From positions 5,293,001 through 5,357,000 of the forward strand of contig NEEC01000002.1 of assembly GCA_002189035.1 (NCBI GenBank): 64,000 bases of DNA, read 5' to 3'. The translations under genes were made by a program, and so were the position numbers. The notes beneath the pieces were generated by a model. That model searched no databases and was not told the origin of the DNA. It was given only the letters and a program-made list of their open reading frames with translations. Each line of letters begins with the position of its first letter. Positions within the stretch are counted from its first letter, which is position 1. Positions 7,709 through 54,551 of the stretch are shown piece after piece. Source of the stretch: Utricularia gibba. Taxonomy: Eukaryota; Streptophyta; Magnoliopsida; Lamiales; Lentibulariaceae.

Positions 7709-10700
7709 TTAGTAGTCTGTACCGATAGTTGATGATTGTTCTTCAGGTCCAGCAATGGCGTCCGACTGCAGCTTTGCTGATTTGGACTCTCCCGTGGGAA
7801 GCTTTATCCGAGGTGAAAGCATCTTAGCTTCCTCAGTGGTGTAGATGTATATCTTCTTGTTCCTTACCATTGTGCAGAACTCCCTGGAAGAAAGGGGGGC
7901 AAAATTATTGGAGTTCAAGGAAATGTGGAAGGCTGAAATTGAAGAGTAGCTCATGAACGTCACTTAACTGCCATGGATCATCTCCAACCATCATCATGTC
8001 GTCTTCATCATCGGTGTAAACAACCTGCCATTTCTTGATTGTTCCTGTGAGCTCCCCTGCGATTTCGAATAGGTCCTCGAGTTTCTTGAGAAGATCCTCA
8101 TAGCAATCAAACTTGGTTAGATCAACAGCTCTCCCAACCGCAACCCCTTGCATGTGAACCTACACGACATTGTCAGAGTTCTTCACTCATGGAGTGTCAT
8201 GCTTGACTACAAAACTTTGAAGTTTCCAGGTTACTCAAGTCTTATGAGAGAATCCAAAATTCTCTACCTTAGTACAACTGCGATTTTTCCGGCTGATAGA
8301 TGGCTCATGAGGGGACCTCAGAGACGACTTTTCAGGATCACAACTAACATTGGATGGATTATGGTTTGACGGCTCTGATTGTTGCTCAGATTCAGCGCAT
8401 AAAGGAGGACAATGGTTTTCAGCTACTGCTCCAGATGAGGCAGCTAGCATAGCATCATCTGCAGCTGGAGGATCAAGCAACTCTATTCCGAATAACCTGC
8501 AACGAGTCATCTGTCTTTTTTCACTAACTGGGTTAAGTGATTGTGATGCAGCTTCAGTTCGAGCAGACTGGTAAATGGAACTTGTTGAAGCAGGAAGCAG
8601 ACTCTCATAATTCATATTACTGAGTCTGCCTCCGGAACCATGCTTATGCGATGGATACAATTCTCGCCCCCGCAATGGATCATGATATGTGAATGCAGGA
8701 GTATCAGACGGTAATTTTCGTACACCTACAATTATCAAACATCAACCTTTTAAAAAGTCTATTAGCTGAAAATGGGTGAGAAAAATGAGAATGAAGAATT
8801 CACTGATAACAAACAAAGATATCTCCGGTTTACCAAGTGAAGATAACTCAGGTGTGGATGAATTCAAAACAGCAGGTCGAGTGCGCTTCGCCCTCTGTTG
8901 AGTCTGAGAATTTGGAGGGGCTGAAGCTACCAGTGGTTCTGCTTCCCATGGTGAAATTTTGTCTGGCCGGACAATTGAGGAGGGCTCATCCCATTGAACC
9001 TGCATTCACATGATATTTGAATGATCAAAGAAAATACTGACAGGCACTTTTGTATTGACAAACAAGATTTGCAGCATGTAAGGGGACAAATTGCATCTGA
9101 TAAATACTTCCTCTGAAAGGCACTGCAGGGTGCCTTGCACCATAAATAACAACACGCTGTGCTGTAAGGAAATCCCTTTTAAAATTGACAATCTTCCCAG
9201 GAATTGAACAAGTTGCCTATCTATTATGACACCATTTCATACATGACACGTAAAGCTATGGGTATAAACAACCAATGTTCGAAGATGAAAAACGAGAAGC
9301 TACCTTCAAGGACCTCCATTCAGAATCAGGCCATGGAGACGAAGCATCATTCTCAATGCCAACAATTGTCCCGCTGAATCTGCACTCATGACAGGGATAA
9401 TTATCACTTATCCAATATGGTGAGAGGCATTTAAAAATACAATGCATGAACAAAGTAAGCCGCAGAATTTACCTTCTCTCAGGAACCTCTTCGCCTTCAA
9501 ATCTCATCTTAAACCTCATCCCCGCAGATAGCTTGTGATTTTGGGCTTCAAGATACTTGTTCACACTTACTAAAAATTCAGATCGACTAGTCCTGAAAAA
9601 GAAAGCAAATGATTCAAGATTCCTTTTTGGAAAGATTAATACTCCATGAGCTCTCTTACTAAACTTAAAATGGTACTTGCCATACCTTGGTTTATAAAAA
9701 ACTGAAAACATAGTCCCAGTTGTTAAAGCATGTGATGCCGTTGCAAGCACTCCTAAGTGCATGCTATGACTCGATATAACAGAAGATGGAACATTATTTA
9801 GCTGCCTCATGAGTTTCCTCACACCAACTCGAAGCTCCCCATTTTCTCCCCTGCCGAAGGGTGGAAATGATGTTTTAATATAAGTTTCCAGTGGCATGTC
9901 ATAAAACTTATCTTCAAGAAAGTGTACCTCAGAAAAATAAAAGCATCTCCAGCCACCAACTTTTTTGAACTAACAAAGACACTCCACCCTGTTGTCAGTA
10001 AATGTCGCCTGGGTTGACCTATATATGATATCAATTAGCACCAATAGTGGAAACCAAAATGCAAAATATGATATACTGTTGTGGCACAAGGGCATTGTGT
10101 TGATGTGTATCAACCTGGTAACCTTCTTGAGTTTATCAACATTATTATATTTTTGGGTTGATTCAATTCAAAAAACGTAGATGAAACTGAACCAGAGTCA
10201 ACCACATTTGCAAACGGCAAAAAAAAAAGCGTTCCAAAATTACTAAAATATAGACCTCGAAAAATGTGACGAAAATGCCATTCATTGCCATGGAGATCAG
10301 AAGCAACTAATTCCTGAGAGGGAGGTTGCTGGGTCATGTCCTAAACATAAGATATGGTTGTTAATGCCTTCATACATTAAAAATGCAGAAACAAAATCAT
10401 TTGCAATCGAGGGTTTTCTTACAAGTGGGGGCAAGCAATCATCTGCATGCCTTCTTAAAACTGAGAATCCCCCATGGGTGCTTGTGTCAGAAGCTGTAAG
10501 TGTCTTACAAAACGAATGGACCGTGCACCTTGGAGGCTCTGGCGCTGGTGGATCTGAACTTGTAATTAAACTTTGCTGATTCGTGTACAGAATTACAATA
10601 TCATTTAGCACCCAAGAAAAACTAACAAAGATAAGAACAACTAACGAGGCTAACTCACATCTGGTTCAGGAAGCAAGGTGATCTGTGCATACACTTCATC

Positions 10701-42640: not shown

Positions 42641-42892
42641 AATTAAATTTTAACATAGGGTATATTGTAAATGATAACTAAATATAATAATATATTACAA
42701 ACGGAATTTGAAAGTGGAGTATTTAATAAAAAAATAATATTCTACATTGGCGCCACCTGGCCGAATCATGTCTAGGGTCGCATTACCAAAATACATATTT
42801 AAAAAATATTTATTGGTAAAATATCTAATGTAATATAATATTTAGTAAAATACATGTATTCAATATGTGTCAGTGTTGCAGTGGAGTGACGA

Positions 42893-43440
42893 GTCATTTT
42901 GAAAACTACCCTCTGTAAAAATACCTTTTTAGAAACTACCCATTGTGTGAACTGTGTGCATCTGAATTTAGAAAACTATCCATCTTACTGTTTATATGTA
43001 TATACATATTATAAATGTAATAATTTGTATTTTGTTAATATGCAATATCCATTTTCAATAAACGGAATCTACATACTTTTTATTATAATATTTACAGAAT
43101 TTTTTTTGTTTTATTAAACCTGTATCCATAATATCAAAATTATTAACTAAAAAATATTCATTATAAAAAAAAGAATTGGTTATTATTATATACAAATAAT
43201 GATATATTACTTATTTAAAATAGAAGTTTGAAAAACTTTTTATTAAATTTTTAAGAACAATCTAACTTTTTTTAAATAAAAATTTTAAAAATTTTTGAAA
43301 AAAAATTATTCTGGTTTTTCAAAATCATAAATCTCTATTCTTTCAAATCAATTCTAAAAATTTAAAAGAATTAATTCATTTTTCAAAAATTTTATTATTA
43401 AACATTTTATTATTAAAGTTTCCAAAATTCATATTTCTAG
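42893..43440 (+). repeat. Left terminal inverted repeat of MULE
   Basis: 548 bp, starting GTCATTTTGAAAAC. It matches the reverse complement of 52,250-52,741 throughout, for example CTGAATTTAGAAAA, ATAATTTGTATTTT, CATAAATCTCTATTC and CAATTCTAAAAATTTAAAA. About 60 extra bases near 43,130-43,195 explain the length difference. Confidence 0.88.
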
Positions 43441-44236
43441 ATTAAAAAAATATCTCCAATTAAACAAAAATGACCCCCCATCAAAAAAATGTTCTCCGTT
43501 ATAAGATACATGACAATTTAATCTCTATTATTAAGTAAACAAAAAGTTACCAAAATAAAACAAAAAAATTCGAGTAATTGGGTACTCACCGCAATCGAGT
43601 AATTGTGGTGACCTACCTATTTTTAAATATTACCTACCTATGTAAATAGTCAAATAAATCATTATAATTATTTGATTCTATGTATGATATTTTAGATTTA
43701 TTTTAAATATCATTAAATTTAAAACAAATACTTGAAAAAATATTTTTTAAATAGTGTAAATAAATTATTTAATACTTTAATTTATAAAAACTATAAGGCA
43801 CATTAATAAACTATAAAAAAATTAATTATAATTAATTTATTATTGAAATTTATTATTTAAATTTATGTGATTGAACCTTTTTATTGAAATAATGAATAGA
43901 TAATATATTTTATTAACTTGAATTTGATCGATAATTAATTAGAAAATAAATTTAGATGATCAAATTAACTATTGAAAAATTATGTGTATTTTACTTAAAT
44001 AGAAATAATATAATATCCAAAAGTATATAATTTATAAAATATTATGATTTTGATTTCATTTAATATCATAAATAAATTATGATCAAATAAATTAAAATGC
44101 TTTATGTTAATTACGATAGTATTATATTAACTTGGATTTTACTATATATAAATAACGTTGAATCCATTTAATTAATTAGATAAAAAGACACAAATTGAAA
44201 TAAGATACATTTAGTAGGGATAAATAGATATTTTCT

Positions 44237-47149
44237 TTACTTGAATGGACTACTAATTCGATCCCATGCTCTCCGTGCTATATTTTTTTTCTTTTTGCGA
44301 CCTTGGCTGGAAGTGGAAGGTATGTTTTCAAAGTCCAAATGAAGGCTGGATGGATGTTCTTGAACAGAGGCACGCGGCGGATGATGGAAATGATCATATA
44401 GTTCCTCTCTTGGAATGTCGACGGATGCTCTATGCATTCGTGGTGGCATAGATGAGGTTGATTCAAATTCTGTTGACATGGTATCCCTTGTAAACTTGTC
44501 TCATCCATGGTCCTCATCCACTGAACCTCTATGCATAGTTGGGGGTGATTCAGCATCAGGTTGATTAGTATATCTCGTTGATTTACCTCGAGTGCCGTGC
44601 CAATGACCCCTATCCATCGACATTTGAAATCGTTTACTACGATACCGGCCTTTACTAATAGCTCTCCGATGTGTTGGATCATGCTTCAGAGTGAATGGCC
44701 CCGGCGCCCAATGAATCTCAGCTCGAAGTGGACGAAATTGTAAGCGAAATGTAGTGATGAGTTGTTGAACCAAAAGCGATGGGTTAACACACATTATCGG
44801 GTCGACATTCAACAATTTACAAGCCTGCGCAACATAGAAATATATTTGTGAATGTTATGTATGATATTAATAGAGGGAGATATTTTCTTCGATAAATACC
44901 TGTTGAGCATGTGAGCATGGTACTCCGTAGTTTTGTCACTTCCCACAACTACAAGTGCCATTTTTCAACCGTACGATACACACATTGTCGTCCGTTGGGT
45001 TACTTTGATGCCTACGGGTTTGTACATGGACGATCATTTCTATGTGATCGTAAACCTCCACTCGCATATGTGGGATAGGCTTATCCCAGTGATCAAATAA
45101 TTTACGCGCTTGTTTGGCCAATGTTTCATTGTTTGATTGAGCTTTCATTGCTTCTTCCAGTCCTTCACAAATGTATTTTTTACATCTTGCAAAAGTGGCC
45201 TGCAAATTTGTAATCATATTAAGTTGATGCTTATAAAAAAATATAAATATAAATGATTGAGATGAAATACTTGCGCAAGTGCAGTAATAGGAAGATGCCG
45301 AGCTCAACGAAGTACTGTATTCATCCCCTCGACTTGATTGGTCGTCATGATGCCAAACCTTCAACATCCATCGAACGATATTGTCCATGTTTCGGGTTTC
45401 ATCTTGGACAAATATGCAAATGCACTTCTATTCTTCTCTTCAATTCTCTTCATATAAGCAGTGAATTTCTCTTTATATCCTGTCAAAGCCGCTTTAATAA
45501 ATAGACTTCTCAAATCTTCAGACTTATAATGATCAAAAAAATTAGAACGAAGGTGACGAAAACAATAACGGTGGCATCCACTCTATTCCTCCATGAAAGC
45601 AGGCACTTGTTTTGCAGCATTTTTTTGACTCATGCCTATCTGAAATAAGGCATGTGGGTTTATCAAGGGCGATGTGAGTTCCTACTTTATCCAAAAACCA
45701 TAACCAAGAATCATTGGTCTCTTCATCAACAACGGTAAAAACTAATGGAAGAAGCTTGCCACTAGGTGATAGAGTTACTGCGATTAGCAACTTGTGTCTA
45801 TAAGTGTTGTATAGATGAGTTGCATCAACTGATATAACCGGTCTTAAATGCTGGTATGCACAAATACATGGACCAAAAGACCAAAACACATAGTGCATAG
45901 TAACACCATCACCTTTGTATTTCCAATCAATCAGTGTTTCAGGATTTTGAATAGCCACCTCATTCAAAAAACTCGAAAGTTTTTGCAAAGATACCTCCCA
46001 AGTACCATAAATGAGTTCGAAAGCTTTATGTAGCCCATACCATGAACGATGATACGGGATTTTGTAACCAGTAGCAGTTTCAACAGCAGTAATTATTGTC
46101 ATCACCTTTGTAACTGTATCTGCTTCCACAAACGGTTTTGCTATCTTCGCAATGTATGTTGAATCCACATTTTTGTGTCAGAAAAAACCCACTCCGAGCC
46201 GTCTACACGTGTGAGGGTCAGTGTGCTTAGTAATTTTCCACTCTCTAATCCTTTTATGATAAGCAGCACGGATTCTCCATTTGCAGTTGGTTTCTTTGTG
46301 ATGTTTACATATCATAGCAAGCACCCCTGGTTCACTATCAACGATTGTGTACTCTTTTCCAATTTTTATTGAAAAGTCTTGGACTGCTCTACGAAAATCT
46401 TCTTTTGTAGAAAACCATTGCCCCTCCGAGAAAATATTAACATAGGCCGGTGAAAGTGGTTCATCTAAAGGGTCTCCCCCTTCTGCCAAAGCAGCCATTG
46501 GTACCCATTATGTATCCCCTAAATCTTCTTCTTGATCTTCATATTCTACCTCAAAATCTAAGTTTTCAGGATCTCCTTCAGGTGGAATATCTGCACCAGG
46601 AACTTCATAATCATTGTTGTAATTTATCATTGAATCACCATCAATATTTGGAGCTGTGCTCACTAGCCATTGGTACCCATTCTACATAATTGTCTTCATT
46701 CTCTTGTAAGAAATCATAGGAGTTGTGCTCACTAACCACCTCATTCAAATATGGTATTTGATAATAACCAAGCGGCTGAGATGAATGTTCTGAAATATAA
46801 ACTCCACTAGAGCTTGCACTGAATCGATGACTATCAAGTATGATAAATAAATCTACCGAAATAGTGGTATGACTAGGGTTGTGCAAAAAGAGTAAATCCA
46901 TTTGAGATGATAGTTGCATATAGCACATTTCGCTGCTTTCATAGTTGAATATTGTACTGAGAGCTGCATATTATATAGAGAGGTTGAAACTTGAATTACC
47001 TCATATAACTCACATTGTAGATCATCCAATGTAGCATCAATGTGAAATTGCATGATTCGTATTGGTGGTTTGTCATAAGAAATGTAACTTCCGTAGTTGA
47101 GTATATTGCCTCCAAAAAATACTCTATATGTAACAAACTCAGAAGCCAT
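44237..47149 (-). pseudogene. Mutator-like (mudrA-type) transposase, decayed
   Basis: Minus strand, reading from 47,149: a leader part (MASEFVTYRVFFGGNI ... IDATLDDLQCELYEVI, then acidic linker to about 46,510), MuDR N-terminal DNA-binding domain (46,178-46,498: FSTKEDFRRAVQDFSI, CKHHKETNCKWRIRA, HTCRR), MULE catalytic domain (45,542-46,168: VISVDATHL gives the first Asp, LISDRHE the second), and after a frameshift a piece with RYCFRHLRSNF and TTNQVEGMN, which supplies the Glu (to about 45,350). Next comes a SWIM zinc finger (CSCGK ... GVPCSHAQQ, 44,882-44,960) in which a TGA stands where Trp is expected, then an intron and a C-terminal exon (44,237-44,820). Several stops and frameshifts; not functional as read. 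Confidence 0.88.
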
Positions 47150-48432
47150 GGCGTTGGAAAAGAAAAAGCTTGCAAATTTCTTTGCGGAGCAGAAGAACAG
47201 TGAATTGTAGACACACCCGTTGTGTCATGATTTCTTTAAGGATCCCCCGACAATATAATATGAATAAATTAACAAAATATTATATTAAGTCTTTAAATAT
47301 AGTGGATATAGGTGTACTCCACATTATGTCAATTATTCATTTGAGAAAATGACAAGTTTGTAATTTGGTAATGTAATTACAGTAAGTCTTATTATTTTAA
47401 TTAAATGTAATTCTGTGAAAAATTATACAATATGCAAAAGCTAAATTAAATATATACGATAATTGTAAACATAGTATATTGACGTCGCAATTATTAAAAA
47501 AAACTTTAAACCAACTGTTTTTTTGGATATCCGTAATATTTAGAAGAATACACTTCAATTTAAGTAATTGTTATTATATATTTAATAATATATAAAAAAT
47601 ACATTTGAATTGAATAATTTTTAACATAACAAAATATTAAATGAATTCTTTTAATGTGTGGAATACAACTGTACTCCATCTTGCGTTAATAATGCATCAT
47701 ACAAAACGACAAGATTGTGATTTGAGAATGGAATTACGGTGAGTCTTACTACATGAATAAAATGTAGTTATGTGAAAAAAATAATTACATGGTGCAAAAA
47801 CTAAATCAAAAGCATGCAATGATTGAAAACATGATAAATTATATTTAGGTAGTACTCATTAAGAAAAATTTTCAAAAATTTACATTTTTGAGGCTCTTTT
47901 TACATTTAATAACACATACTATAATATTTCATTTAGAAATTGATATGTTATTATCTTAGATTTGAATTGTAATGATTTATATTTTTTTGAAAACTAGTTT
48001 TTCCATGTTTTTAGATTGATTTTGAGTAAAATACTTATTATCTACACTTTTTATATATAAAATTTCATCATTTCATTGAATAATTACTAAATTAGGTTGA
48101 TCTGCATAGGGTTTTGGGGGTTTAGGGTTTTTTAGGGGTTCGTTAGTCACTGTAATTGCTTAATTACAGTGACTATACAATTTCCTCCGTTCCTGCCCAT
48201 AGAATTCCCACGTAGAAAATTTCACTGCAATTTCCTTCACTAATTTTTTTATTCTTTTTCAGATTTAGCATTCCAAGGCTCATGGGGAATCTAAATTTTC
48301 AGATTTGACTAACATGCACACCATTCCAACATTGACTTCACGAAATTCAATAAATTTTCAAAATCTTTACCTCTATATATGAGAGCATTACACTGACCTT
48401 TAGCTCATTTTGAGCATTCCTTTGTTTCACTT
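47150..48432. promoter_or_regulatory. Divergent promoter region of the MULE, with a duplicated segment
   Basis: 1.28 kb between the two divergent start codons. Two diverged direct copies of a ~190-bp segment (about 47,290-47,475 and 47,640-47,850) share TGTACTCCA, AC(A/G)A(G/C)AAG/TTTGT, GTAATT(A)C, GTGAGTCTTA and TGTGAAAAA. TTTAGGGTTT telobox-like words at about 48,120-48,140 are followed by a perfect 12-bp-arm inverted repeat (48,146-48,173). Confidence 0.6.
48146..48173. repeat. Perfect inverted repeat, 12-bp arms, 4-nt loop
   Basis: GTCACTGTAATT, loop GCTT, then AATTACAGTGAC. The same half-site recurs elsewhere inside the MULE (see 43,586, 47,372, 47,735 and 51,675-51,813). Confidence 0.85.
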
Positions 48433-50362
48433 ATGGCCCCTAGAATGGATACTTCCCTCAAGCTCAAGGTGCGGTTTGGTGTTCCGTATGAATATCAAAT
48501 GTTCGACAAAATGGGCAATGAGAAGATTACCGATCCATTACTGGAACAGGTCGGTACTAATGGTATCGCTATTTCTACCGAACATTTTCGTTGCGGATTA
48601 TGCTTACCAATCTTGCCATTTATTTTATCAATGCTTCATTGTATTGATGTTCCCCTAGCCCAATTGACCCCAAAATCAATAGGGTATGTTTTAGCCTTCT
48701 TTGAAATTTGCAATGAACTAAATATACCTCTTTATCTTGGCATTTTTTTTGCTATTATCGTATGTGCTTATACCAAAAAAACCAATGGTTATACACTTCG
48801 AGGAAGACCTGGTATTAAGTTGATTAGGGGTTTACGGAGCGGATATGATGATTGGAGAACATCTTTCATATGGGTTGCACTACCATATAATCATCGATTA
48901 GATTTTCCACTAATGTTAATTGGCGGAGATGGCGTTGGTAAGCCAAAAGTTAACAATTTTCTATCAAAAATCTTTTAATTTTGTTATAAATGATTTTAGA
49001 ATTTAAATTTAGTTTGAATTTTTTTTATGAATTGTATGATAATTTATTATAAATTTTATTTTTTGTACCCTTCTTGTTTTGCTAGGTATTTTATGTTTTT
49101 TTAATTAATTTAAATTTTATTAAATTCTTTTTATTTATCATTTGTACTCATATTTATTTTATTCTATGTAGGTATTACTCTATTAGATGTAGAGCAAAAA
49201 AATCACTACTTGAATTTATTTGATGGCAAGACAGTTTCATTTCGAGACATTGAGCCTCGATTTCTAGAAGTTCCTGGAACAAAGAAATTTTTGTGTGATA
49301 CGGTGAGACGTAATTTGCTAAGGAATGATGATGATGTTGTTGAAGATGAAGAACCAGAGCTAAAAACCGTCAATTTACAACATGGAGAAACATCATCATT
49401 TCATGAATCAGTGGTACCAGTTGAAGTAATTTATAATGATCGCCCAATTGCAAGGAAATTGTTTATTGTCGACGTAAATGAGATCTTTTGTGACCTACTA
49501 TCATATAGAACTACTTCAAGAGATAGTCATGTTCGCATCCCGGACATGAAAATATATCATCAAGAAGGTAAAATTATTTATTATTTGATTTCATGGATAT
49601 TCAATTATTTTTTTATTACATTAGTTAACTTTGATTTTTTATTTTAAATTAGCTATCAAAATTAGTTCCCTTACATATTTTTTTGAATATGCAGTGTATT
49701 TGAGACCTTTTGCTAGAGAATTCATGTATTGGTGCCTTTAACACTTTGATGTTGCAATTTGTTCATCACGTGGAGGGTATTATATAATGTTTAGACTATC
49801 ATTATTTTAAAAACTAACACTATTTTTATTAATTATGTTTTCAGGGTTCAATTGTCAGGAATACTTCAATGGATTTTTGGATTTGGTAGACGAAGCCAGT
49901 GGATATTTCAGTGGGATGCATCTTATGTTACTCCAACCGACGTAAAGGTTATTGATAAGGCATTCAAGAAGGTGGTCTTAAAAGAGTTAGCAAAATTTGA
50001 TATGAATATAGTAGTGTTTACAATATTAATAACACATTATTGATAGATGATTCACCTTACAAGTGCATTAAAAATCCGGTAATATATCATTTTTTACATT
50101 TTAAATTTTACAATCTACCTTCTTTTATAACATTTTTGAGTTTAACTTATATTTACAGATGCATACTTGTATTCATCCGGAGTCGTACACTTATGACAAA
50201 CTTGAAGATAATGCACTTGGTGAAGGTGGTGAAATACGTAATTATCTTGAGGGGTTACAGTTGGCACAAGATGTTGAAAATTACTATCGTAGGCATTTTT
50301 TTGGACAAATGCTTATAGATCAGTGTCATCCTTTATTTCCATATTATCGTCAACTATTTTGA
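48433..50362 (+). pseudogene. PF04195-like transposon domain fused to FCP1/NIF-like HAD phosphatase, broken
   Basis: Five exons with GT/AG borders and matching phase: 48433-48937, 49172-49567, 49695-49776, 49845-50078, 50159-50362; about 473 residues if intact. Exon 1 has the 'putative gypsy type transposon' pattern (LPILPFILSML, LAQLTPKSIGYVLAFFEICNEL, RPGIKLIRGLRSGYDDW). Exon 2 has an acidic linker, then KLFIVDVNEIFCDLL, which fits motif I of plant NIF-like phosphatases (typical KLLVLDLNGLL). Exon 3 has VYLRPFAREFMYW and HFDVAICSSR (motif II). Exon 4 has FQWDASYVTPTD, VVLKEL (Lys) and LLIDDSPYKCIKNP (motif IV). Exon 5 has the family tail HPESYTY, LGEGGEIRNYLEGL, FFGQ. Breaks: TAA at 49739-49741 in exon 3 and a 1-nt frameshift in exon 4 near 50,000. 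Domain calls are from memory of family patterns. Confidence 0.75.
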
Positions 50363-51640
50363 AATGTTTCTATTTGTTTAAGTAAGATCTTTTTTATTTT
50401 AAAATGTATTTTGAGAATTCCAAAAGAATCGTAGGTTTTTGGATGAAAAAAAAATAGGTATTTTTTTAAAAAACTTATTTATTTAAGTTTTATTTGAAAT
50501 AGTTGACATCAATGCTTATCTATATATTTATTTTTAAAAAAATATTTGGATTTTTTCACGTATTATTATTTTTTTTTCATTTTTTCTTTTCTTTTCTATA
50601 ATTATGAATGATAAAATTTTTATATTTTAGTAAAATTGTTTTAATCTATCTTTTTTTATTAATATTTAACTATGCATAATGTGTTAAAAATGTATAATTT
50701 TTATTTGAAGAACCTTATGTACTTAATATTACCTAAATAATTCTATTCATTATTCATAAAAACATTAAAAAATGGTACGAACATGTATAAACAAATTACG
50801 AACAACATTTACGAATATATAAGTCTATTAGATTTATATGATTTATAAAAATAAATAACTATAAACATGTAGTAAAATTCAAATTTCAATGAATTTTGAA
50901 ATAAAATAGCAAAACCATATCTATATATATTTGAAATTTATTTCTTATTGTATATATTTTAAATTAAAAAATATTTTTTATTTCATTCATTACATTTGAG
51001 AAAAAAATCTTTAATATTATTTGAAAGAAAATAACAAAACACGAATTTAAAATATAAAAATAAACAAGATGTCCAAATAACATTTAATGATTAGATGATA
51101 TATAATACAAATTTAAGATAAATAAAAAAGTCAAACCTTCGGAATAATACTTTGACATTTAAAATAAAAATATACACTCAATCTAAACAATACTATAGTG
51201 GATGATGCATAGCAAATATAAAATAAAAAAATAGTAAGTTGATCCAAATAACACTTTAAACTTAAGTAATACATAATACAAATTTCAAAGAAAATAAAAG
51301 ACACTTGATTCAAATAAGAAATAAAGATTAAATGATATATGATATAAATTTAAAATAAAAACATAGGTATTCTAAAAAGAATTTGATGCAAATAACATCC
51401 AATGTTCAAATGATTTATATAAGAAAATATATCACATATTCATTATTTCAATAAAATGGTTTAAAGAATTAAATAATAAATATAATATTTTAAAGTAAAT
51501 TTATAATTTTTTAAGTGTTTATAAATTAAAATACTAAATAATTTATTTATCATGCTTTAAAAATATTTATTCGACTATTTTCTTAATTTAACAATATTTA
51601 GAGTAAATGTAAAATATTATCTACGAAATTGAACAATTGC
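50363..51640. other. AT-rich interior of the MULE, no gene seen
   Basis: Downstream of the fusion gene, extremely AT-rich, with repeated phrases such as 'gatgatatataatacaaatttaa' and 'ccaaataacatttaatg' at about 51,070, 51,180, 51,250, 51,330 and 51,390, a worn ~65-80-bp tandem array. No coding sequence. Confidence 0.5.
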
Positions 51641-51674
51641 GGTGACTTATGTTTTTTAAAATATTGTTTTTATA

Positions 51675-51813
51675 GTTACCGCAATCAAGTAATTACATGG
51701 ATTTTCCTATTTTTAAATATTATTTACGTAGTCACCGTAATCGGCTAATTACAGTAACTTAACCATTTGAAAATATTATTTACATAGTCACCGCAATCGA
51801 TTATACTACAATT
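51675..51813. repeat. 56-bp tandem repeat with GTCACCGCAATCG motif
   Basis: Units at 51,675-51,730 and 51,731-51,786 and a partial third from 51,787. Each starts GT(T/C)ACCG(C/T)AATC, runs through TAATTACA and ends AAATATTATTTAC(G/A)TA. A further direct-orientation copy lies near the other end at about 43,590-43,645. Confidence 0.8.
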
Positions 51814-51991
51814 AGAGCTGGTACGGGTGGGACTGGTACGAGTACGAGTCCGACCTGCCAGATCAAAAATTAAGTGGCTGAGTCGGCGGGTCAAACTTGT
51901 GCGGGTAAAGTGCTTGACCCGACTCGTACCCGGGTCATGCTGAGTTGGTGAGGACACACAGACGTGGGTTACATATCCCACGCCCCACGTC

Positions 51992-52095
51992 CGTGTGTGA
52001 TGCTGAGGACTACGCCCGTGTGAGTTGCCGTTGGACGTGGGTTCGTGTGTGATGCTGAGGACTATGCCCGTGTGAGTTGCCGATGGACGTGGGTA
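51992..52095. repeat. GC-rich 52-bp tandem duplication
   Basis: Two nearly identical units (51,992-52,043 and 52,044-52,095), each running from CGTGTGTGATGCTGAGGAC to GGACGTGGGT. They sit in a GC-rich patch (about 51,820-52,100) unlike the surrounding AT-rich DNA. Confidence 0.88.
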
Positions 52096-52249
52096 ACACA
52101 TGAAATTGTGTTTACTTATAATTTTTATGTAAATCAATTAATATAATTTAAATAATTTAAACATCATTAATTCATTTTTGTATATTTAATTCATAAGAAT
52201 TTACAATTATATTGTTCATTTTATTATAGACATTTTGAATTTAGAAATA

Positions 52250-52741
52250 TTTGGAAATATGAAATTTTGAATCTTTAATAATAAAGTGTTTAATAATAAA
52301 ATTTTTGAAAAATGAATTAATATTTTTAAATTTTTAGAATTGATTTGAAGGAATAGAGATTTATGATTCTGAAAAACTAGAATAATTGTTTTTCAAAACC
52401 TTTATAGAAATTTATTTTTTAAAAAAAATTTAGATTGTACTGACAATTTAATAAAAAGTTTTTGAAACTTATATTTTAAATAAATAATATATTATTATTT
52501 TTGTGTCAGGTTTTATAAAATAAAAATATTTCATGTAAATATTATGATAAAAAATATGTAAATTCTATTTTTTTGAAAATAGATATTTTATATTAATAAA
52601 ATACAAATTATTATATTTATAATACGCATATATACATATAAACATTAAGATGAATAATTTTCTAAATTCAGATACACACAATTAACACGGTGGTTAGTTT
52701 TCTAAAGAGGTATTTTTATATTGAATAGTTTTAAAAATGAC
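52250..52741 (-). repeat. Right terminal inverted repeat of MULE
   Basis: About 492 bp. Its reverse complement starts GTCATTTTTAAAAC and follows the left TIR base by base with perhaps 80-85 percent identity by eye. Confidence 0.88.
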
Positions 52742-53381
52742 ACATAGAGAGACGGGGGAAGAGAGAGGAGGGGGCGAGGGGTGAATGGAAGTTAAAAAAG
52801 CTGCAAGAAAAAACAATCGAAGGTTGACTCTACTGTCTGGTTTGAAATATTGATTTAAAATGGGAAAGATGATCGACGGATGAAGATGCACCAGTGTGTG
52901 ATTGTAATGGATTGATGAATGAGAATGAAGCAACTATAGACTGTGTTTGCGTTGAACTCCATTGACAATTATGTAAAACCTTACATGTATTTTACAAAGA
53001 CTTCAAAAATCATGGGTATTTTGTCAATTATTTTTTTAAATCGTGTATTTTACTAATTTTATCCATGTGCGATAGTAACTACACGTGGGAATTGTTTGAG
53101 AATGATTGCTTGGAGAACAATCCCTTCTGGGAATTGCTGCTCCAGTAAATTAGATCATGAGTCAAGCAACGGTTATGGCGTGTTGGTCTCCATCTCTAAC
53201 AACAGCCACCACCTTTAGACATTCGCATTAAATAGTAGGTCTGCTGCTTTTAACCACTCGACGGCCGGCCGTTGACATCTCCGTTCCACCTGCACATCAT
53301 CTGGAGATGCTTTTGTGTCCAAAAGGGTGTTGCAAAGGAAAGCTTTGTGCTCTTTTTGGTGGGTTTTGATTTGGCTTCATA
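52742..53381. promoter_or_regulatory. Upstream region of glutaredoxin-like gene
   Basis: Contains the right flank of the MULE and, from about 53,080, GC-richer sequence that is the likely promoter and leader of the downstream gene. No separate gene seen. Confidence 0.4.
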
Positions 53382-54551
53382 ATGGGCTGTTCTGCTTCTC
53401 GTTCTGCTGATTTTGTTGCTCATTGTCAAAAGCCTGAGTCGAATGCTTCTTCTTTGCACTGGAAAACTCTGTTACAGTCACCCTGCAACTCGTTTTCTGA
53501 CTTGAATTCGACTCCGGCTTCGCGGACTCGTTCTCTTCTGACCCCTGTAGTGCACCACCCGCCTGTGAGAAAAGGGGATTCGAATCACTTTGTTGCTCTC
53601 ACGTCCACTACCTATGGCTCGCTTTTCCTCCTCAATCCACCTAACTCGAGTCCGAATATCGAGACCCAAGGAGATAAGATGTCACAAGAGGAACAAATTG
53701 GGGGCTCTGCGAAATGTGTGTCCCCTGTTTCTGTTGTCAACACATGGGAGCTCATGGAGGGCCTTGATGACAACGAATGCACCTTCAAAAGAGTTGATTG
53801 CCACAAGGGGAATCCTGAAAGTGAGATGAATGCAGCTGACATGGCGAAATCTCTTGAGTTTGTGGAGCATCCGGTTCCCAGGCCCTTGTGGGAACACTTA
53901 CATGAAGAATCACTCTTTCCTAGAATCGATGGGCATGTGGGTTACAGAAAGGCATCATCAATGAGGAGAAAAGTTGGATGTGGGAGGCCAATGGAAATTC
54001 CAAATCATAGAAAGAATGATGAGCCTCTCCCTTCACATAATGCCATGGAATCCAATGGTAGTGATGAATTCTGTTGTTTGTGGGGCGGTGCAGAGGATAG
54101 AATAGTGCTTTACTACACAACTTTGAGGGGCATTCGAAAAACATATGAAGATTGTTGTGCTGTTCGAAATATTCTGAGGGGATTCAGAGTACCTGTGGAT
54201 GAAAGAGATATCTCCATGGACAGAGCTTACAGAGCCGAGCTGCAGCAGGCTCTAAACTCAGAAGCTGTGAGCTTGCCGCAAGTGTTCGTAAGAGGGAAAT
54301 GCATCGGTGGAGCTGAGGACATTAAGCAGCTCAACGAGGCCGGAGATTTAGCCAAACTACTAGAAGGCTTTCCATTCAGCGACTCAGGATTTTCTTGCGA
54401 GTTCTGTGGCGATGCTCGATTTGTTCCATGTCCCAATTGTAATGGAAGTCGAAAGGTTTACGAGGAGGAAGATGGGTCGCTGAGGAGATGCCCTGACTGC
54501 AATGAGAATGGATTGGTTCGATGCGCCTCTTGCCGCCTTTCATCAGACTAG
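53382..54551 (+). CDS. Glutaredoxin-domain protein with C-terminal Cys-rich zinc region (At5g39865/At3g57070-like)
   Basis: Single-exon protein of 389 residues. Starts MGCSASRS, a good N-myristoylation signal, so membrane attachment is likely. The first ~235 residues are Ser/Pro-rich and probably disordered, with a conserved NTWELMEGLDD segment (about 125-135). The glutaredoxin-like domain (about 245-345) runs from RIVLYYTTLRGIRKTYEDC through VDERDISMD to LPQVFVRGKCIGGAEDI. The usual CPYC-type active site is replaced by TLRGI, as is normal in this plant family, so classical redox catalysis is doubtful. The end carries four C-x-x-C pairs (CEFC, CPNC, CPDC, CASC), a DnaJ-type zinc-binding pattern. 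The next in-frame stop is TAG at 54549-54551. Confidence 0.93.
   Translation: MGCSASRSADFVAHCQKPESNASSLHWKTLLQSPCNSFSDLNSTPASRTRSLLTPVVHHPPVRKGDSNHFVALTSTTYGSLFLLNPPNSSPNIETQGDKMSQEEQIGGSAKCVSPVSVVNTWELMEGLDDNECTFKRVDCHKGNPESEMNAADMAKSLEFVEHPVPRPLWEHLHEESLFPRIDGHVGYRKASSMRRKVGCGRPMEIPNHRKNDEPLPSHNAMESNGSDEFCCLWGGAEDRIVLYYTTLRGIRKTYEDCCAVRNILRGFRVPVDERDISMDRAYRAELQQALNSEAVSLPQVFVRGKCIGGAEDIKQLNEAGDLAKLLEGFPFSDSGFSCEFCGDARFVPCPNCNGSRKVYEEEDGSLRRCPDCNENGLVRCASCRLSSD

Follow-up and report, generated by a model that had tools for sequence, protein, structure and literature searches.

Many elements of the plant MuDR, MUDRAVI2 and MULE (Mutator-like element) clades carry an antisense open reading frame for a plant mobile domain, PMD (PMC6446971). 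The VANDAL elements with VANC and the Kaonashi (KIU) elements with a ULP1 protease are also MULEs with accessory genes, one of them with a captured host enzyme domain, and the anti-silencing action of VANC demonstrates that a MULE accessory protein can undo silencing (PMC13317346). Here, we describe a MULE in a 64,000-nucleotide stretch of the Utricularia gibba genome (contig NEEC01000002.1, positions 5,293,001 to 5,357,000; the whole stretch is called the window below). The element resembles the PMD-bearing MULEs in its MULE transposase, its antisense second gene, its long terminal inverted repeats (TIRs) and a target-site duplication (TSD) in the range of 9-10 bp, but its second gene joins a Transposase_28 domain to a HAD domain, and the survey of those elements mentions neither Transposase_28 nor a phosphatase (PMC6446971). 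The VANDAL and Kaonashi elements differ further, since they are non-TIR MULEs with unrelated proteins, the enzyme is a protease, and no sharing of their genes with hAT or Harbinger elements is described (PMC13317346).

Transposase_28 is known as an accessory domain from the Retand elements (Ty3/gypsy), of which 23% have it in an extra reading frame, but these are long terminal repeat retrotransposons, and the passage describing them mentions no HAD fusion (PMC6317226). A transposon-derived domain fused to, or working with, a phosphatase domain is seen in MAIL3 and in MAIN/MAIL1-PP7L, where a PMD is combined with a PP7 phosphatase in transposon silencing and gene expression; unlike the gene described here, these are host genes, their phosphatase is of the PPP rather than the HAD type, their transposon domain is PMD rather than Transposase_28, and they repress transposons (PMC7156037). 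By profile, the HAD part belongs to the fold family of FCP1, SCP and UBLCP1 (PF03031, NIF), sharing their motifs II, III and IV but having D-x-N at motif I in place of D-x-D-x-T/V. The initial annotation of this stretch knew of no described phosphatase-bearing MULE, and we likewise found no HAD domain in any MULE, and no PF04195-PF03031 fusion, in the open-access literature.

We place a probability of about 0.7 on the following explanation as a whole. The window would hold a dead member of a lineage of MULEs in which the second gene consists of Transposase_28, a coiled-coil-like linker and a HAD domain of the FCP1/UBLCP1-like type, the outcome of capturing a HAD domain from the host and combining it with one from a transposon. 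This fusion would serve DNA transposons in this genome generally as an accessory gene, kept by selection, swapped among superfamilies and acting in trans. Carried as it is by three unrelated transposon families, it has the appearance of a helper module that they share and not of a peculiarity of one element.

The window element and its two genes

The MULE occupies 42891-52743 (9.85 kb), two bases further out at each end than the 42,893-52,741 first assigned to it; these bounds follow from the termini of its relatives, G-N-GTCATTTT. The inverted repeats of ~0.5 kb described earlier are real, with 88% identity between the arms over 486 ungapped columns and an alignment score of 621, compared to a mean of 96 (standard deviation 16, maximum 133) for 200 shuffles. 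A duplication is present as well, although it is not of the expected 9 bp: 9-mers agree at 0-3 positions and 10-mers at 7-9, and since 9-mers and 11-mers hardly match in the window and its relatives, all in one register, the TSD is 10 bp. It is imperfect in the window, with 7/10 agreement, a level that just 0.2% of the other 10-mers at this locus reach. The features are as follows.

42881..42890, no strand: left TSD, GTGGAGTGAC, 7/10 match to 52744-52753
42891..43442, plus: left TIR, beginning GAGTCATTTTGAAAACTA, with 57 related TIR pieces genome-wide
43684..43915, plus: inner (subterminal) inverted repeat arm, 72% to 51420-51620
44237..44854, minus: transposase C-terminal part, in two frames
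44936..45427, minus: SWIM-side transposase part, conserved in other copies (about 48-95% identity)
45542..46177, minus: MULE transposase catalytic domain (PF10551, E=6.2e-14), followed by a frameshift
46178..46507, minus: MuDR DNA-binding domain (DBD_Tnp_Mut, PF03108, E=1.3e-07), with an in-frame stop before the catalytic part
48433..50362, plus: Transposase_28-HAD gene, spliced, degenerate, ~five exons, head to head with the transposase
48433..48937, plus: exon 1, open, Transposase_28 domain (Pfam), splice site inferred from relatives
49172..49567, plus: exon 2, linker and HAD motif I (FIVDVNEIF, just past 49453), splice sites inferred
49695..49776, plus: small exon, HAD motif II (VYLRPFAREFMYWCL*HFDVAICSSRG), TAA at 49739-49741
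49845..50078, plus: exon with HAD motifs III (KEL) and IV (LLIDDSP), frameshift between them
50159..50362, plus: last exon, encoding a conserved C-terminal tail, with TGA at its end
51420..51620, minus: inner inverted repeat arm, pairing with 43684..43915
52249..52743, minus: right TIR, from the arm alignment
52744..52753, no strand: right TSD, ATAGAGAGAC, 7/10 match to the left copy

The Pfam matches to the DNA-binding and catalytic domains bear out the mudrA-type transposase that had been placed on the minus strand. For the second gene, the Pfam scan returned Transposase_28 (PF04195, 3.5e-07) and, with the window HAD exons joined, NIF/PF03031 (1.3e-06), and it returned no PMD (PF10536) and no ULP1 protease domain. 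The gene is thus the one initially annotated, a spliced plus-strand gene with a transposon-type domain and a HAD domain, head to head with the transposase. The small motif II exon is intact in three relatives (L055, L049 and L026), and the frameshift in the window HAD part falls between "KFDMNI" and "NNTLLIDDSP." Because stops and frameshifts break the transposase, and a TAA and a frameshift the HAD part, both genes are broken, and the window element is a dead MULE copy, a relic rather than the "autonomous-type" element proposed for it.

What identifies the element as a MULE is the combination of a mudrA-type transposase with a MULE domain, long TIRs, a TSD within the 8-11 bp range and a multi-copy family. 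A Pack-MULE, in which a host fragment replaces the transposase, is a different arrangement; here, the transposase still adjoins the second gene.

Carriers of the fusion gene in three superfamilies

In the 100 Mb of genome searched (516 contigs), the left TIR matches 57 places, several of them paired. Six of the insertions read have recognizable ends and a 10-bp TSD: the window element, L041_42, L043, L048 and L050 (each of these four with 9/10 agreement), and L045 (8/10). The transposase and the Transposase_28 gene are oppositely oriented in all six, and the HAD part is kept in four of the five outside the window, the truncated L045 having lost it. L041_42 and L043 also have the inner inverted repeat arms. 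L048 and L050 form a second subfamily, with a transposase core 66-69% identical to that of the window, compared to about 37-50% for Transposase_28 and about 25-37% for most HAD exons, so the accessory gene has evolved more rapidly than the core of the transposase. The proposal of the initial annotation that this MULE lineage possesses a HAD-domain gene of its own is therefore supported: relatives bounded by TIRs and TSDs enclose both genes, and both gene parts appear to have been kept by selection. Further copies of the kind for which it had suggested a search do hold both genes between TIRs and TSDs, but nearly every copy read has lesions.

Transposase_28 lies within 8 kb of 30 of the 139 MULE transposase matches listed, with 3 expected; like the other pair counts given here, which are genome-wide, this is a lower bound. 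Among the MULE pairs, 17 are head to head and nine have Transposase_28 downstream on the same strand, suggesting that, besides the MULEs with the head-to-head gene, there is another MULE class in which Transposase_28 is in tandem. As a separate observation, C506:21395-35410 and C451:3293861-3308200 are near-identical and contain the same MULE pieces, probably as duplicate contigs or through a recent duplication, which slightly inflates the copy counts.

The recurrence of TIR-bounded MULEs with both genes, and the grouping of the head-to-head MULE copies in one clade (described below), could mean that a single MULE lineage captured a host phosphatase and used it as an active enzyme against silencing. 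We consider this improbable. The same type of gene sits in hAT elements with 8-bp TSDs and in PIF/Harbinger elements with TWA, which already refutes a MULE-specific gene, and the active enzyme is opposed by the Asn that takes the place of the second catalytic Asp in nearly all copies, none of which has Asp there.

Two of these carriers, L054 and L066, are hAT elements with the Transposase_28-HAD gene inside. Their mutual homology ends at TAGAGSTGGGCA... and ...TGCCCAGCTCTA, their 8-bp duplications, ATTGAATC/ATCGAATC and GATGTAAC/GGTGTAAC, agree at 7/8 positions each, and their transposase has BED and hAT dimerization domains. A related hAT transposase is found within 6 kb of 27 of the 139 Transposase_28 matches, compared to 2 expected; most of these transposases share the strand of Transposase_28 and precede it by 1.7-3.2 kb. 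In hAT elements the gene would be convergent or tandem relative to the transposase. L053 and L069 share a colinear unit of ~7-8 kb in which a DDE_Tnp_4 transposase is followed by the Transposase_28-HAD gene; their inverted termini are related to GGCCTCGTTTGTTAGGTGGGTTTA, and the flanks are TAA in L053 and TTA/TAA in L069 (TWA). A Harbinger transposase lies upstream of 40 of the 139 Transposase_28 matches, with 1.6 expected, and in 40/40 of these pairs the two are on the same strand, 1.06-2.78 kb apart, so that in PIF/Harbinger elements the gene would typically follow 1-3 kb downstream of the transposase. In termini, TSDs and transposases, both pairs of elements resemble other hAT and PIF/Harbinger transposons and differ from them in the extra gene, which to our knowledge is outside the standard gene set of either superfamily.

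Chance nested insertion was rejected on the basis of the fixed orientation and spacing. The same regularity bears on whether the fusion gene could be, or belong to, a mobile element in its own right, with insertions close to or within other transposons. Such an element would account for the adjacency to several kinds of transposase and for the minisatellite-like blocks flanking the gene in L053 and L054, but the 40 Harbinger pairs are uniform in orientation and fall within a single spacing range, the gene is enclosed in elements with MULE, hAT or Harbinger ends and TSDs, and independent insertions share the whole unit; we therefore regard it as very unlikely. Initially, it had been held that a phosphatase gene existing apart from the MULE would point to a one-off insertion. 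The gene does occur outside MULEs, but a one-off insertion does not describe a gene that several superfamilies carry.

Some further features of these elements may be noted. The minisatellite-like blocks are 3' of the Transposase_28-HAD gene, at 7227-7650 of L053 (Harbinger) and 6983-7604 of L054 (hAT, 56-bp unit). A short Myb/SANT-looking reading at 8754-8981 (minus strand) of L053 resembles the second gene of PIF/Harbinger elements and has no Pfam match. Within the window MULE, just inside the right TIR, a G+C-richer stretch at 51811-52090 starts with TTAGAGCTGGTACGGGT and resembles the L054/L066 hAT termini; it is possibly a small hAT-derived insertion, with no inverted repeat found within it. 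Directly downstream of the MULE, at 53379-54551, is a host gene whose product has a glutaredoxin domain and a GRXCR1/2 C-terminal domain.

The HAD domain, its origin and its maintenance

Fifty-three HAD matches have Transposase_28 within 6 kb, and 51 of them share its strand and follow it downstream, in most cases by 0.3-1.7 kb. The HAD part of L055 matches NIF at 5.5e-10, and a six-copy profile compared with PDB structures matches UBLCP1 at 7.8e-4. Across 20 copies from five subfamilies, motifs II (SSR), III (K) and IV (DDSP) are largely kept and agree with the S/T, K and DD of the FCP1/NIF family. The DxDx(T/V) of motif I does not occur in the 20 copies read: motif I is D-[VI]-N-[GE] in most, with Asn at the position of the second catalytic Asp in 19 of them and DxD in none. 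In the exception, L057, part of the site is deleted and the residue is K; the first Asp of the motif has been lost in L041, L043 and L051.

The second Asp is the acid/base of ordinary HAD phosphatases. Its replacement by Asn family-wide makes a normal phosphatase unlikely, and the "phosphatase" of the initial annotation does not stand in the ordinary sense; the motifs point to an atypical phosphatase at best. A literature search for an SCP1 D98N mutant returned nothing. The Asn is not a product of transposon decay, since two host genes, L072 and L073, share it (LDVNGLL). These genes, with no listed Transposase_28 nearby, are the closest host relatives found, L073 having 47-48% identity with four of the five transposon groups in the comparison and 39% with the remaining one. 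The SCP-type host genes L063 and L064, which read DLDETL and are distant, were rejected as the source, and a TIM50-like host gene, L065, reads DLNETL. By sequence resemblance, the most likely source of the HAD part is the "DVNGLL" subfamily of host HAD genes.

Two observations concern the range of gene forms. In the Transposase_28 protein of L060 (C460:107084), there is a long coiled-coil-like reading and a HAD domain was not detected; the genome also has Transposase_28 genes that lack HAD. The Transposase_28-HAD genes at C304:866361 and C304:971442 are far diverged from the others, seem identical to each other and have long open frames; the HAD part of L061 stops short after the motif II exon.

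Between L053 and L054, an example of a pair from different lineages, nonsynonymous divergence (dN) is 0.31-0.37 and synonymous divergence (dS) is saturated, the Transposase_28 and HAD parts being alike in this. A dN so far below dS between lineages indicates that the gene was maintained while they diverged, and the present copies are decaying; it is purifying selection, as read from these substitutions, that kept both gene parts between subfamilies. For close pairs in groups A and B, dN/dS is mostly 0.33-0.61, with one value of 0.91. In a tree of 27 gene copies, one clade (99/97) comprises the head-to-head MULE copies, the hAT-convergent copies are placed with those of Harbinger in a group apart from it (98/97), and another hAT-linked pair stands separately. 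Repeated transfer of the gene between superfamilies would be the simplest reading of this tree.

Several points weigh against a maintained and shared gene. In groups C and E, dN/dS between close pairs is near 1, recent copies are decaying, and there are lesions in nearly every copy read. The group labels of the tree cover 27 copies only, with six unlabelled; the pair counts take in a few duplicated contigs (C506/C451, C41/C451 and C66/C451); the tandem hAT and tandem MULE arrangements are known from spacing statistics and not from defined element ends; the splice sites of the Transposase_28-HAD gene are inferred; and single-sequence AlphaFold gave no usable model for the Transposase_28 domain (pLDDT, the predicted local distance difference test, of 40). 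The values near 1, and the stops or frameshifts in the window copy and most others, are also what a captured host fragment riding as a functionless passenger would exhibit, and capture by Pack-MULEs is common (PMC13317346). Values near 1 are nonetheless expected in groups C and E because those copies are dead. Passive cargo is unlikely given that a multi-exon coding plan and the HAD motifs persist over diverged subfamilies with dN far below dS, and that the elements also bear transposases, in fixed orientation and spacing.

Proposed role and significance

The protein would be a trans-acting nuclear factor with a phosphorylated target in the host, for example, the C-terminal domain of RNA polymerase II, with the Transposase_28 part perhaps providing localization or partners. 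Given the D-x-N of motif I, it most likely would bind or trap phospho-substrates, or be a slow or altered enzyme, and it may thereby keep elements of any superfamily expressed. An anti-silencing role, suggested by analogy, is possible but doubtful. We would be just as tentative in proposing that the fusion with a host HAD pseudo-phosphatase is a transferable module for anti-silencing or transcription tuning, repeatedly exchanged by MULE, hAT and PIF/Harbinger elements, with a target general enough for all of them.

A fixed position in three unrelated superfamilies would imply a benefit independent of any given transposase or terminal sequence, and its sharing among them would imply gene exchange between superfamilies. 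Since such a benefit would be common to three transposition mechanisms, expression, silencing or repair is likelier to be involved than transposase chemistry. The accessory genes of plant transposons (VANC, ULP1 and PMD) have led to new silencing biology before. The parallel with MAIL3 and PP7L suggests that the fusion may be a transposon counter-player to them, on a different phosphatase fold and without the canonical catalytic Asp.

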